A DNA stretch of 44,119 nucleotides from Agathobacter ruminis (GTDB lineage Bacteria > Bacillota > Clostridia > Lachnospirales > Lachnospiraceae). The translations under genes were made by a program, and so were the position numbers. Where the stretch lies: NCBI RefSeq assembly GCF_002735305.1, contig NZ_PDYG01000042.1, positions 1 through 44,119 on the forward strand, read 5' to 3'. Below the pieces are notes generated by a model. It searched no databases, had not been told where the DNA came from, and was given only the letters and a program-made list of their open reading frames with translations. Of the stretch, positions 17,832 through 21,731 are shown piece after piece. Numbering within the stretch: position 1 is the stretch's first letter; each line of letters begins with the position of its first letter.

Positions 17832-19013
17832 TTAGTGATGGAACAGACGAATTCCGGTAAAGCTCATCACCATATCATATTTATTACAGGTGTCAATTAC
17901 ATGATCGTCGCGCACCGATCCTCCCGGCTGTGCAACATATTTCACACCGCTTCTGTGTGCACGCTCAATGTTGTCACCGAACGGGAAGAATGCATCCGAT
18001 CCAAGTGCCACATCCGTATTCTGATCCAGCCATGCTCTCTTTTCTTCTGCAGTAAATACAGCCGGCTTGGTCTTGAAGATCTTTTCCCAGGCCCCATCAG
18101 CCAGGACATCCATATAATCCTCACCCATATATAAGTCAATTGCATTGTCGCGGTCTGCGCGCTTGATTCCATCCACAAACGGAAGATTCAATACCTGTGG
18201 AGACTGACGCAGCCACCAGTTGTCTGCCTTTGATCCGGCAAGTCTGGTGCAGTGAATTCTCGACTGCTGGCCGGCGCCGATTCCGATTGCCTGTCCGCCT
18301 TTTACATAGCAGACACTGTTTGACTGGGTATATTTCAAAGTAATCATTGCAATCGCAAGATCAATCTTTGCCTGCTCGGTCAAAGCCTTGTTCTCTGTCA
18401 CAATATTGTCAAAGAAATGCTCATCGATTTTTAATTCATTGCGTCCCTGCTCAAATGTAATTCCGAATACTTCCTTTTTCTCGGATGCCTTTGGCACATA
18501 ATTCGGATCAATCTTGATGACACAGTAATTGCCGTTTTTCTTTGCCTTTAAAATTTCAAGCGCCTCATCGGTATAATCCGGTGCAATCACGCCGTCAGAT
18601 ACTTCTCTTTTGATAACAAGTGCGGTGGAAGCATCACAGGTATCGGAAAGAGAGATAAAATCTCCGAAGCTTGACATTCTGTCTGCGCCTCTTGCACGGA
18701 TATAGGCATTTGCCATCGGTGTAAATTCGATGTCCATATCCTCTACCCAGTAGATTTTCTTTTCTACATCTGTCAGCGGAAGTCCGACTGCGGCACCTGC
18801 CGGTGATACATGCTTGAAAGAAGTTGCGGCCGGAAGTCCGGTTGCACGCTTTAACTCTGATACCAGCTGCCATCCGTTAAATGCGTCAAGGAAATTGATA
18901 TATCCGGCTCTGCCGTTTAATACCTCAATTGGAAGATCACTTCCATCTTCCATGTAGATTCTGGAAGGCTTCTGGTTTGGATTACATCCGTATTTTAATT
19001 CATATTCGTTCAT
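17832..19013 (-). CDS. purH: AICAR formyltransferase (stand-alone PurH domain)
   Basis: A 393-residue enzyme that transfers a formyl group from 10-formyltetrahydrofolate to AICAR (ZMP), the next-to-last step of IMP synthesis. The catalytic Lys-His pair is in TSFKHVSPAGAA (K67, H68), with QSNSVCYVKGGQAIGIGAGQQSR split across two conserved blocks and the C-terminal PGGSVRDDHVI region. It has no N-terminal IMP cyclohydrolase domain, so it is the stand-alone form; the missing activity is encoded by the gene before it. The ORF begins at 19019, but AGGAG is only 1 nt from that ATG and 7 nt from the ATG at 19013, which I prefer. It is 47 nt after purO and under the ZTP riboswitch. Confidence 0.94.
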   Translation of the reverse strand: MNEYELKYGCNPNQKPSRIYMEDGSDLPIEVLNGRAGYINFLDAFNGWQLVSELKRATGLPAATSFKHVSPAGAAVGLPLTDVEKKIYWVEDMDIEFTPMANAYIRARGADRMSSFGDFISLSDTCDASTALVIKREVSDGVIAPDYTDEALEILKAKKNGNYCVIKIDPNYVPKASEKKEVFGITFEQGRNELKIDEHFFDNIVTENKALTEQAKIDLAIAMITLKYTQSNSVCYVKGGQAIGIGAGQQSRIHCTRLAGSKADNWWLRQSPQVLNLPFVDGIKRADRDNAIDLYMGEDYMDVLADGAWEKIFKTKPAVFTAEEKRAWLDQNTDVALGSDAFFPFGDNIERAHRSGVKYVAQPGGSVRDDHVIDTCNKYDMVMSFTGIRLFHH

Positions 19014-19060
19014 CGTCATTCTCCTATTTCTGATTCAATTTTTTCGCACAATCGGCTTTT

Positions 19061-19774
19061 TTATTGATTCTTATTGATGATGCGGGTTTCATATTTTCCG
19101 GTTTCAATATCGATGTAGCGGACAAAAAGAGAAACCTTATTGTCTTCATTCAGGTTTGACCATACAAGATTGGTAAATTCATCGATGTCTCCGCAAATAT
19201 CAACCCAGGTCGGTTCTCCTTCAAAGCTTGGAAGCGGATTGCCGTCTCCCATATAGGTATGGATGAATCTGCCCTCTCCTGCCTTTGGATTCTCATAAGA
19301 GAAGGTGTAACGGTTGCAGGAATCCGAGTCTCCGTTGTTGCTCTTTAAAATAGACATTGCATATTCAAATGCACCGTCTTTGATTTCCATAACACCGGAA
19401 ATACGAGGTGTATAATTTGGTCCGTCCGGCTCAAATTCACGACAACGCAGAGAAACTTCAAAAGTCTCCCCTTTGCTCATTCCTTTATAAACGGTATCAG
19501 TCTGATCTCCATTCGTAACAATGGTCTTATCTCCCAGCACGCGAACCGGTGCATAGATAATCAGGCTTGGATCAGTTAACTTGCTCGGATCAAATGCCTG
19601 TGTGCGGATGCCTTCGCCATCTTCCACAAATACACGGTTACGGCTATTCTCGCTGCGGCCCATAATAAAATATGCTGTTACGGCATATTTTCCGTCTGCT
19701 GAGCGGCCGATTACAATTCCGCGGCCCGGATAAGTTGTTGCAGATAATTCTGTTGCAAGTGAAATTCTGTTCAT
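19061..19774 (-). CDS. purO: IMP cyclohydrolase, PurO type
   Basis: A 237-residue cytoplasmic enzyme that closes FAICAR to IMP, the last step of de novo purine synthesis. It begins MNRISLATELSATTYPGRGI and contains YTPRISGVMEI, matching the archaeal-type PurO fold, which is unrelated to the cyclohydrolase domain of bifunctional PurH. The open frame extends 10 codons further, but AAGGAG with a 7-nt spacer defines the ATG at 19772-19774. It is directly downstream of the ZTP riboswitch and upstream of the formyltransferase gene, so the two last purine steps are coded by adjacent genes. Expression is predicted to rise when ZMP or ZTP accumulates. Confidence 0.9.
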   Translation of the reverse strand: MNRISLATELSATTYPGRGIVIGRSADGKYAVTAYFIMGRSENSRNRVFVEDGEGIRTQAFDPSKLTDPSLIIYAPVRVLGDKTIVTNGDQTDTVYKGMSKGETFEVSLRCREFEPDGPNYTPRISGVMEIKDGAFEYAMSILKSNNGDSDSCNRYTFSYENPKAGEGRFIHTYMGDGNPLPSFEGEPTWVDICGDIDEFTNLVWSNLNEDNKVSLFVRYIDIETGKYETRIINKNQ

Positions 19775-19857: not shown

Positions 19858-19927
19858 AAAAAATGCCGACAGTCCAAGCAACAATTATCGAAACTTCTTC
19901 TTCATAATTGGTGCCCAGACGGTCGGC
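19858..19927 (-). terminator. Riboswitch-controlled terminator
   Basis: On the minus strand GCCGAC (19922-19927 on the plus axis) can pair with GTCGGC (19865-19870), with CAATTAT/ATAATTG pairing inside, and a six-U run follows (19858-19863). The 5' arm overlaps the conserved 3' half of the ZTP aptamer, so ligand binding and terminator formation are mutually exclusive. This predicts an ON switch: ZMP or ZTP binding prevents termination before purO. Confidence 0.85.
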
Positions 19928-19981
19928 TTAATATTCGTTATACTTCATGTGGTATGCTCCACTTTCCGTCAGTCATATAAC
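19911..19981 (-). ncRNA. ZTP riboswitch (pfl motif) aptamer
   Basis: The minus-strand leader carries the conserved pfl elements in order: P1 GUUAUA (19976-19981) paired with UAUAAC (19937-19942), a CUGACGG core, P2 GUGG/CCAC (19959-19962 with 19949-19952), and the 3' block GCCGACCGUCUGGGC. The pseudoknot GACGG (19966-19970) pairs with CCGUC (19918-19922); usually this is GGCG/CGCC, so the A and U here are compensatory changes. The aptamer begins at the predicted transcription start. Known ligands are ZMP and ZTP, the AICAR nucleotides that build up when 10-formyltetrahydrofolate is low. Confidence 0.93.
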
Positions 19982-19987
19982 ACAGTT

Positions 19988-20017
19988 ATTATAATCAAAC
20001 GATTGCCCCAAAGTCAA
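19988..20017 (-). promoter_or_regulatory. SigA-type promoter of the purO-purH operon
   Basis: Minus strand: TTGACT (20012-20017), an 18-bp spacer, and a perfect TATAAT (19988-19993). The predicted start near 19981 is the first base of the ZTP aptamer P1 stem. Confidence 0.82.
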
Positions 20018-20047: not shown

Positions 20048-20071
20048 AAAAGCTCCGGCGAAAGCCGGAGC
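20048..20071 (-). terminator. Terminator of the DUF711 operon
   Basis: A perfect 8-bp GC-rich stem (20052-20059 with 20064-20071, loop TTTC on the transcript) lies 7 nt past the DUF711 stop and is followed by four U residues. It probably ends the 12-gene run that begins at 37204. Confidence 0.82.
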
Positions 20072-20077
20072 ATGGTT

Positions 20078-21442
20078 TTAGTTTTTGAAACTGTGAATTG
20101 GAGCCGGAATGCGTCCACCGCGGTTGATGAAGTCTGCACATGAGAACGGGTTAACCGGCATAATCGGAGCATATCCAAACAGACCTCCGAATTCCACCTG
20201 GTCGCCAACTTTCTTTCCGATTGCAGGAATCAGACGTGCCGCAGTCGTCTTCTGGTTCACCATACCAAGCGCCATCTCGTCTGCAATCATACCCGAAATC
20301 GTCGTTGCAGGAGTGTCTCCCGGAATGGCAATCATGTCAAGTCCGACTGAACATACACAGGTCATGGCTTCAAGCTTTTCGAGATTGATTGCGCCGGCTT
20401 CGACCGCATTAATCATACCCTGGTCTTCCGATACAGGAATAAATGCGCCGGACAAACCACCGACGTAAGAGGATGCCATAACACCACCCTTTTTGACCTG
20501 ATCATTGAGCATAGCAAGCGCAGCTGTCGTACCTGGAGCACCTGCATATTCAAGTCCGATGGAGCAAAGAATATCTGCAACACTGTCGCCGACTGCCGGC
20601 GTCGGTGCCAATGACAAATCCACAATACCAAACGGAATATTGAGCATACGGGATGCTTCTTTTGCCACCAGTTGTCCCACACGGGTTACTTTAAATGCGG
20701 TCTTTTTGATGGTTTCGCAGAGAACTTCAAAGCTTTCGCCCTTTACCTTTTCTACTGCACGCAATACCACACCAGGGCCGGATACTCCGACATTGATAAC
20801 TGCATCGGTCTCTGTCACGCCGTGGAATGCACCGGCCATAAACGGATTGTCATCCGGTGCGTTGCAGAATACAACCAGCTTCATGCAGTCTGCAGAATCA
20901 TTGTCTTTGGAAATTTCAGCCACTTCAAGAATAATCTCGCCCATCAGCTTAACCGCGTCCATATTGATACCGGTCTTGGTGGATGCAAGATTGACAGAAC
21001 TGCATACACGCTCGGTTCTGTGAAGTGCAATCGGGATGGAACGAATCAGCATCTCGTCCGCTTTCGTCATACCCTTTGATACCAATGCGGAATATCCGCC
21101 GATCAGGTTGACACCAACCTGCTTTGCGGCACGGTCCATGGTATCTGCGATGGTTGCAAAATCTTCCGGACTCTTGCAGGCTGCTCCGCCGACTAATGCA
21201 ATCGGTGTTACGGAGATGCGCTTGTTGACAATCGGAATACAGTAGTTGGATTCAATCTCATTTCCAACTTTTACCAGATTTTTGGCAACCGTTGTAATTT
21301 TGTTGTAAATCTTTTCGTTTAATTTCTGCAAATCGGAATCTATACAGTCCAAAAGGCTGATTCCAATGGTGATGGTGCGGACATCAAGATTTTCCTTTTC
21401 GACCATCTCATTGGTTTCCAATACTTCGCCAATATTAATCAT
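20078..21442 (-). CDS. DUF711 / UPF0210 family protein
   Basis: A 454-residue soluble protein of the DUF711 family (UPF0210), sometimes labelled PFL family because of a glycine-rich structural resemblance to pyruvate formate-lyase. No activity has been shown. Recognisable segments are [25 protein letters not shown], and the C-terminal [16 protein letters not shown] near residue 430. Length is typical (about 450). It starts with GAGAGG 7 nt upstream and lies 16 nt after the ACT gene; this ACT-DUF711 order is a frequent conserved pair. Together with the terminator it closes the 12-gene run. I cannot assign a substrate. Confidence 0.9.
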
Positions 21443-21458
21443 GTTCTATCCTCTCTCA

Positions 21459-21731
21459 CTAAATTCTGTGCATCATCTGGAAAATTTCTTCTTTTTGACA
21501 CTTGATCACAACGCCGATGGATTCGCCCAACTGATCGAGTTCATCGGAAATTGTAGCAAAATTCTTTGCTGCATCAGCGGTATCTACAATCATCATCATA
21601 TTGAAATACCCTGACACGATGGTCTGGGAAATGTCCAGCACATTAACACCTGAATCAGCAAGATATGTACATACCTTTGCAATGATACCAACGGTATCTT
21701 TTCCTACTACAGTAATGATAGTTTTGTTCAT
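21459..21731 (-). CDS. ACT domain protein (UPF0237)
   Basis: A 90-residue protein made of a single ACT domain, beginning MNKTIITVVGKDTVGIIAKV and having the DISQTIV strand. ACT domains bind amino acids or related small ligands and act as regulators. In UPF0237 members the gene is commonly next to a DUF711 gene, as here, which suggests a regulatory subunit, but this has not been shown. It starts with AGGAG and a 6-nt spacer and lies 27 nt after the MBL-fold gene. Confidence 0.92.
   Translation of the reverse strand: MNKTIITVVGKDTVGIIAKVCTYLADSGVNVLDISQTIVSGYFNMMMIVDTADAAKNFATISDELDQLGESIGVVIKCQKEEIFQMMHRI

Follow-up and report, generated by a model that had tools for sequence, protein, structure and literature searches.

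We find that a canonical ZMP/ZTP riboswitch, whose expression platform is an intrinsic terminator, very probably controls a two-gene operon, consisting of purO followed by a gene for AICAR formyltransferase, and that it acts as an ON switch for a Z nucleotide; we put the probability of this reading at about 0.94. The DNA analysed, which we call the window, is the 44,119-nt contig NZ_PDYG01000042.1 of Agathobacter ruminis, and the leader and both genes are read from its minus strand. When the whole window was compared with 4227 Rfam families, the ZMP/ZTP riboswitch family RF01750 matched at 19986-19906 (-) over its full length (model positions 1-86 of 86), with 61.6 bits against a gathering score of 39 bits and E = 1e-7. 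An earlier sequence-only reading had named a ZTP riboswitch with the full pfl-motif order and proposed an Infernal comparison with RF01750, and this match above threshold bears out the riboswitch. It is the single RF01750 match at E <= 0.001 in the A. ruminis genome, a 2.86-Mb draft in 134 contigs.

The aptamer (19906..19986, -) consists of P1 with seven pairs (19981-19975/19943-19937), P2 with four pairs (19962-19959/19952-19949), P3 with three pairs (19927-19925/19915-19913), and a pseudoknot formed by a 5′ strand GACGG (19966..19970) and a 3′ strand CCGUC (19918..19922), the latter also being part of the 5′ arm of the terminator. To examine covariation, we aligned 85 of 102 aptamers from the same bacterial family, leaving out rows that were duplicates or longer than 88 nt. 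Across these 85 aptamers, 95.6% of the paired cells are standard, as compared with 32-44% when the structure is slid along the alignment, and none of 500 shuffles reached the observed pairing and covariation. The pseudoknot helix is 99.8% paired, and 15 of the 19 pairs have changes on both sides. The paired substitutions that had been reported for the pseudoknot come down to a single covarying pair with A-U in place of G-C, and this covariation is genuine; the window, however, does not depart from the common form as had been supposed, because A-U is the majority form of this pair (A-U in 57 of the 85 aptamers, G-C in 25 and G-U in 3). The P1-P2 helix-junction-helix and the P3 with H-type pseudoknot, both with covariation, are all present, and the window element is a textbook ZTP riboswitch, apparently complete and without surprise. 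The ligand of the class was named by Kim et al. 2015, as cited in a passage of PMC10912719.

A putative sigma-70-type promoter, TTGACT-18-TATAAT (19988..20017, -), lies directly before the aptamer; it has 11 of 12 consensus matches and is the top of 8 in the scanned region, and transcription would be expected to start at about 19981, near the first base of P1. Farther upstream, a terminator-like hairpin (20052..20071, -; 8-bp stem with 7 G-C pairs and a TTTT tail) stands 3′ of a DUF711/UPF0210 gene and sets that gene apart from the leader, although the scan for such hairpins found 2 sites in the region as against 2.4 expected in shuffles. The DUF711/UPF0210 gene and an ACT-domain gene occupy window positions 20078-21731 directly upstream.

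The expression platform (19858..19927, -) is a hairpin predicted at 19927-19865 followed by a U6 tract at 19863-19858. The stretch 19927-19863 folds at -32.7 kcal/mol (z -6.81), a stability that none of 200 shuffles equalled, and the same hairpin is seen when the entire leader is folded to its minimum energy. The limits of the element had been placed at 19858..20017, and these coordinates are good, since the -35 box TTGACT starts at 20017 and the U tract ends at 19858. It had also been claimed that the 5′ arm of the terminator overlaps the aptamer core, and in the predicted fold this arm indeed contains P3, the 3′ pseudoknot strand CCGUC and the conserved UGGGC. Thus, the predicted terminator cannot coexist with the folded aptamer, and the model makes the hairpin and P3/pseudoknot mutually exclusive. 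A T-run and a hairpin with P3 as its 5′ arm are found in 96 of 102 relatives, a loose test that 40-51 of the 102 also pass when the part after P3 is shuffled (five shuffles), and for this reason we dropped the count as decisive evidence. Farther downstream, an AGGAG (19786-19782, -) precedes the start codon of purO.

Which ligand is bound, which way the switch turns and what triggers it in the cell are carried over from the riboswitch class, and the switch would then work as follows. With 10-formyl-THF in short supply or ZMP building up, a Z nucleotide would bind the nascent aptamer and stabilise P3 and the pseudoknot, which would block invasion by the 3′ arm of the terminator and let the polymerase read through, giving the ZMP-consuming enzyme together with the enzyme that closes the ring to IMP. 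When no ligand is bound, the 3′ arm would displace P3 and the pseudoknot, and transcription would stop at the U tract near 19858. This arrangement had been called a feed-forward loop, but a consuming enzyme that is induced by its own substrate would lower ZMP, so that homeostatic feedback on ZMP would be the better name. In the Clostridium beijerinckii pfl switch, the ligand gates a strand displacement that runs through P3 and the pseudoknot (excerpts of PMC10085676), and the same rearrangement is seen in a covariation model that covers the entire ZTP switch (an excerpt of PMC13273304). Judged by the predicted fold, the window has the parts of this C. beijerinckii-type displacement mechanism. 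It shares with such terminator-type switches the aptamer architecture, the 5′ arm of the terminator and the presence of purine or one-carbon genes downstream, and nothing categorical sets it apart from them; what follows in the window is purO and a stand-alone formyltransferase gene rather than fused purH, pfl or fhs.

The aptamer might instead be unresponsive, having lost its response; the hairpin would then attenuate or simply terminate transcription whatever the ligand, and PurO and the formyltransferase would be kept at a constant level. Many relatives carry both genes without an aptamer match, two pairs of the Rfam consensus are flagged in the window as non-standard (an outer P1 pair and the outermost pair on the P3 side), and at the conserved junction between the UPF0210 gene and purO two relatives (L193 and L198) have just 25 and 36 nt from stop to start codon, with a ribosome-binding site and no aptamer. 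All 19 named pairs, however, are standard in the window, one of them as G-U, and in the best named relative (L192, with a PurO 89% identical) the junction is 417 nt long and keeps an aptamer that scores 79.2 bits with model R1, just as the window keeps one there. We consider an unresponsive aptamer very improbable. A comparison of relatives that carry the switch with others that lack it at one and the same junction could show its value to the cell.

Nor is it easy to see the aptamer as a specificity variant that senses a related but different ligand, a reading that we regard as more improbable still. On inspection by eye, the window and eight other alignment rows have UGAAG 3′ of P2 where most rows have GGGAG, but nothing is altered in the core of pseudoknot and P3, and in the eight relatives that share UGAAG the aptamer precedes genes for purO, formyltransferase, pfl or the pfl activase. 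A Z-nucleotide switch of the usual kind remains our reading, and by class its ligand is the substrate of the formyltransferase encoded in the operon, as had been proposed. The element is a clean, testable instance of a known riboswitch placed before an enzyme that consumes the riboswitch's own ligand.

The genes downstream had been named as those for PurO and AICAR formyltransferase, and both family assignments stand (PF07826 and NF005492), but not the order, which is purO first and the formyltransferase gene second. The purO-like gene (19061..19774, -), with its ATG beginning at 19774, encodes 237 residues of the IMP cyclohydrolase family and matches PF07826 with 240.2 bits (cut-off 28.1 bits). 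Against the two NCBIfam PurO models the protein stays below cut-off, with 42.8 bits for purO_arch (cut-off 158.35) and 47.7 bits for the other (cut-off 150), so the function of the protein as PurO rests on family, context and phyletic pattern. Comparison with the Methanothermobacter thermautotrophicus enzyme (PDB 2ntk) gives 34 bits, significant over residues 14-130. In this alignment the catalytic-type Arg, Tyr and Glu are present, R30, Y59 and E104 being aligned to R, Y and E, and we take these to be the residue numbers assigned to the catalytic Arg, Tyr and Glu of PurO. The side chains of Arg, Glu and Tyr are the postulated PurO catalysts in a section of PMC6797443. As compared with archaeal PurO (M. 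thermautotrophicus, PDB 2ntk/1kuu), the N54 position is Asp in the alignment; R, Y and E align, yet the window protein scores under the NCBIfam cut-offs, and its activity is a predicted one.

The second gene (17832..19019, -) encodes a stand-alone AICAR formyltransferase of 395 residues, without an IMP cyclohydrolase domain, which matches NF005492 with 725.3 bits (cut-off 415 bits) and PF01808 at profile positions 76-311; it is the genome's sole PF01808 gene. Human ATIC (PDB 1p4r) aligns with residues 5-395 of this protein with 478 bits. Among the 80 best named purO loci, which by their titles are mostly from Lachnospiraceae, a formyltransferase gene begins less than 600 nt after purO in 79, and in the 80th the contig ends 21 nt past purO.

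The pair had been described as a split purO-purH, and taking it as a divided form of the bifunctional enzyme does not hold. Excerpts of PMC6797443 state that PurO is unrelated to the cyclohydrolase domain of PurH. For the other half, a comparison within the bacterial family of 21 stand-alone formyltransferases with 19 fused proteins gave a median identity of 28% (median aligned length 394; higher values, reaching 70%, come from local alignments just 57-90 residues long). The C-terminal formyltransferase domain of human ATIC is 55% identical to the window protein and 53-60% identical (median 57%) to the stand-alone proteins, whereas fused PurH of the same bacterial family has a median of 29% to human ATIC. 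Because PurO is unrelated and the formyltransferase is distant from fused PurH, these sequence comparisons point to an operon in which PurH has been replaced by two other enzymes, a replacement pair rather than a split PurH. As compared with a ZTP switch before bifunctional purH, the riboswitch class and the metabolic step are the same, but the enzymes downstream are an unrelated cyclohydrolase and a distant formyltransferase.

The two forms also exclude one another among genomes. PF07826 is present in 163 of 200 genomes of the bacterial family (one genome per genus) and fused PurH in 30, and all 30 of these are absent from the 163. In one of the genomes with fused PurH (L103, G082:C12), a second, stand-alone formyltransferase gene has an aptamer of its own, and the genome has no PF07826 match. 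Earlier work has called PurO archaeal (in an excerpt of PMC4177761), and an earlier count, given in part of PMC6797443, placed it in 22 of 1266 bacteria. Across the phylum, PF07826 matched in 13 of 249 genomes, among them 4 from this bacterial family, and RF01750 matched in 45; an aptamer lies upstream of 5 of the 13 purO genes (G000, G341, G444, G268 and, at ~1.6 kb, G391).

The tie between the switch and this pair had been singled out as the interesting part, and the distribution in relatives argues against giving it that weight. There are 131 RF01750 matches in 101 of the 200 related genomes, 3 of the 131 being below the family cut-off. Fused purH is preceded by 20 of them, in 20 of the 30 genomes that have it, and purO by 52, directly in 51 and with the formyltransferase gene first in one (G096); because aptamers precede both, this control is not peculiar to the two-gene form. 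Coordinates of purO were listed for 150 of the 163 purO genomes, and by this count, made with Infernal's stricter filters, 52 of the 150 genes have the aptamer and 98 have no match, which means that the operon does not need it; one further purO with an aptamer (L101, in G107) lies beyond the 52. Among the 80 best named purO loci, model R1 finds the aptamer in 31 (E 0.001 or better), and two of the remaining loci have under 100 nt of upstream DNA.

As for other targets, at least 9 of the 131 aptamers precede fhs, the gene for formate-THF ligase. First genes behind the 102 of these 131 aptamers that we examined also include pyruvate formate lyase (a cluster of 17), its radical-SAM activase, stand-alone formyltransferase (first behind 4 of the 102), fhs, purE and formate transporters, representatives of the first-gene clusters having been checked with Pfam. 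These genes fit the pfl-motif genes named in an excerpt of PMC2864571, which in 2010 counted purH among the commonest, and a 2024 review gives purH as the predominant purine gene (a passage of PMC10912719). Open-access literature searches that joined this riboswitch with purO or IMP cyclohydrolase turned up no description of its purO link; this link is a small extension of the known one to purH.

Tentatively, the switch may be a labile module on a replacement pair. On this reading, which we hold to be somewhat doubtful, most genomes of the bacterial family would have an archaeal-type PurO and a eukaryote-like formyltransferase in place of bifunctional PurH, and the switch would have been gained or lost repeatedly before the two genes, as at the UPF0210-purO junction, where the window and L192 have it and L193 and L198 lack it, and might move between families along with them. 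In Intestinibacter bartlettii, of the Peptostreptococcaceae, an aptamer, a purO (80% identical) and a formyltransferase gene (75%) stand together at L202 2830-4993, and transfer of this whole unit is possible. Megablast of the operon against 72,556 plasmid records gave no match.

We also considered that enzymes were swapped in place under one inherited riboswitch. Among the genes around 20 fused-purH loci and those around 21 purO loci, the shared families are scattered ones, such as transporters and response regulators, with no consistent gene order (in this comparison the ORF picker overlooked the fused gene in L168), and because the two kinds of locus have no consistent gene order in common, an in-place swap is unsupported.

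Similarly, we looked for another known RNA element before the purO genes that have no aptamer. Rfam gave one sub-threshold microRNA match and nothing else in 12 such leaders and nothing in 20 further ones, and model R1 gave nothing in these 32 of the 98 leaders, so this candidate was set aside for the 32 covered. In 47 named leaders without the aptamer, the enriched words are mainly those of ribosome-binding sites, and a hairpin with a T-run occurs in 3 of the 47.

Where the two genes part, control might be aimed at the formyltransferase. Of 113 stand-alone formyltransferase genes with both coordinates listed, 112 are no farther than 2 kb from purO, the one exception being in G169. In G169, G179 and G133, where purO and the formyltransferase gene are apart, an aptamer precedes the formyltransferase gene in each and also purO in G169 only. 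Since two of these three genomes were found through the aptamer, the pattern is not independent evidence, and three of three selected genomes are too little to support such a claim.

Elsewhere among the relatives, the first genes behind aptamers encode an ECF transporter component, formate/nitrite transporters, an NADH/iron-sulphur oxidoreductase and a DUF1576 membrane protein (L091, L075, L093, L115, L105 and L112, the first gene of L115 being assigned by similarity only). The ZTP riboswitch is common to many related gut bacteria.
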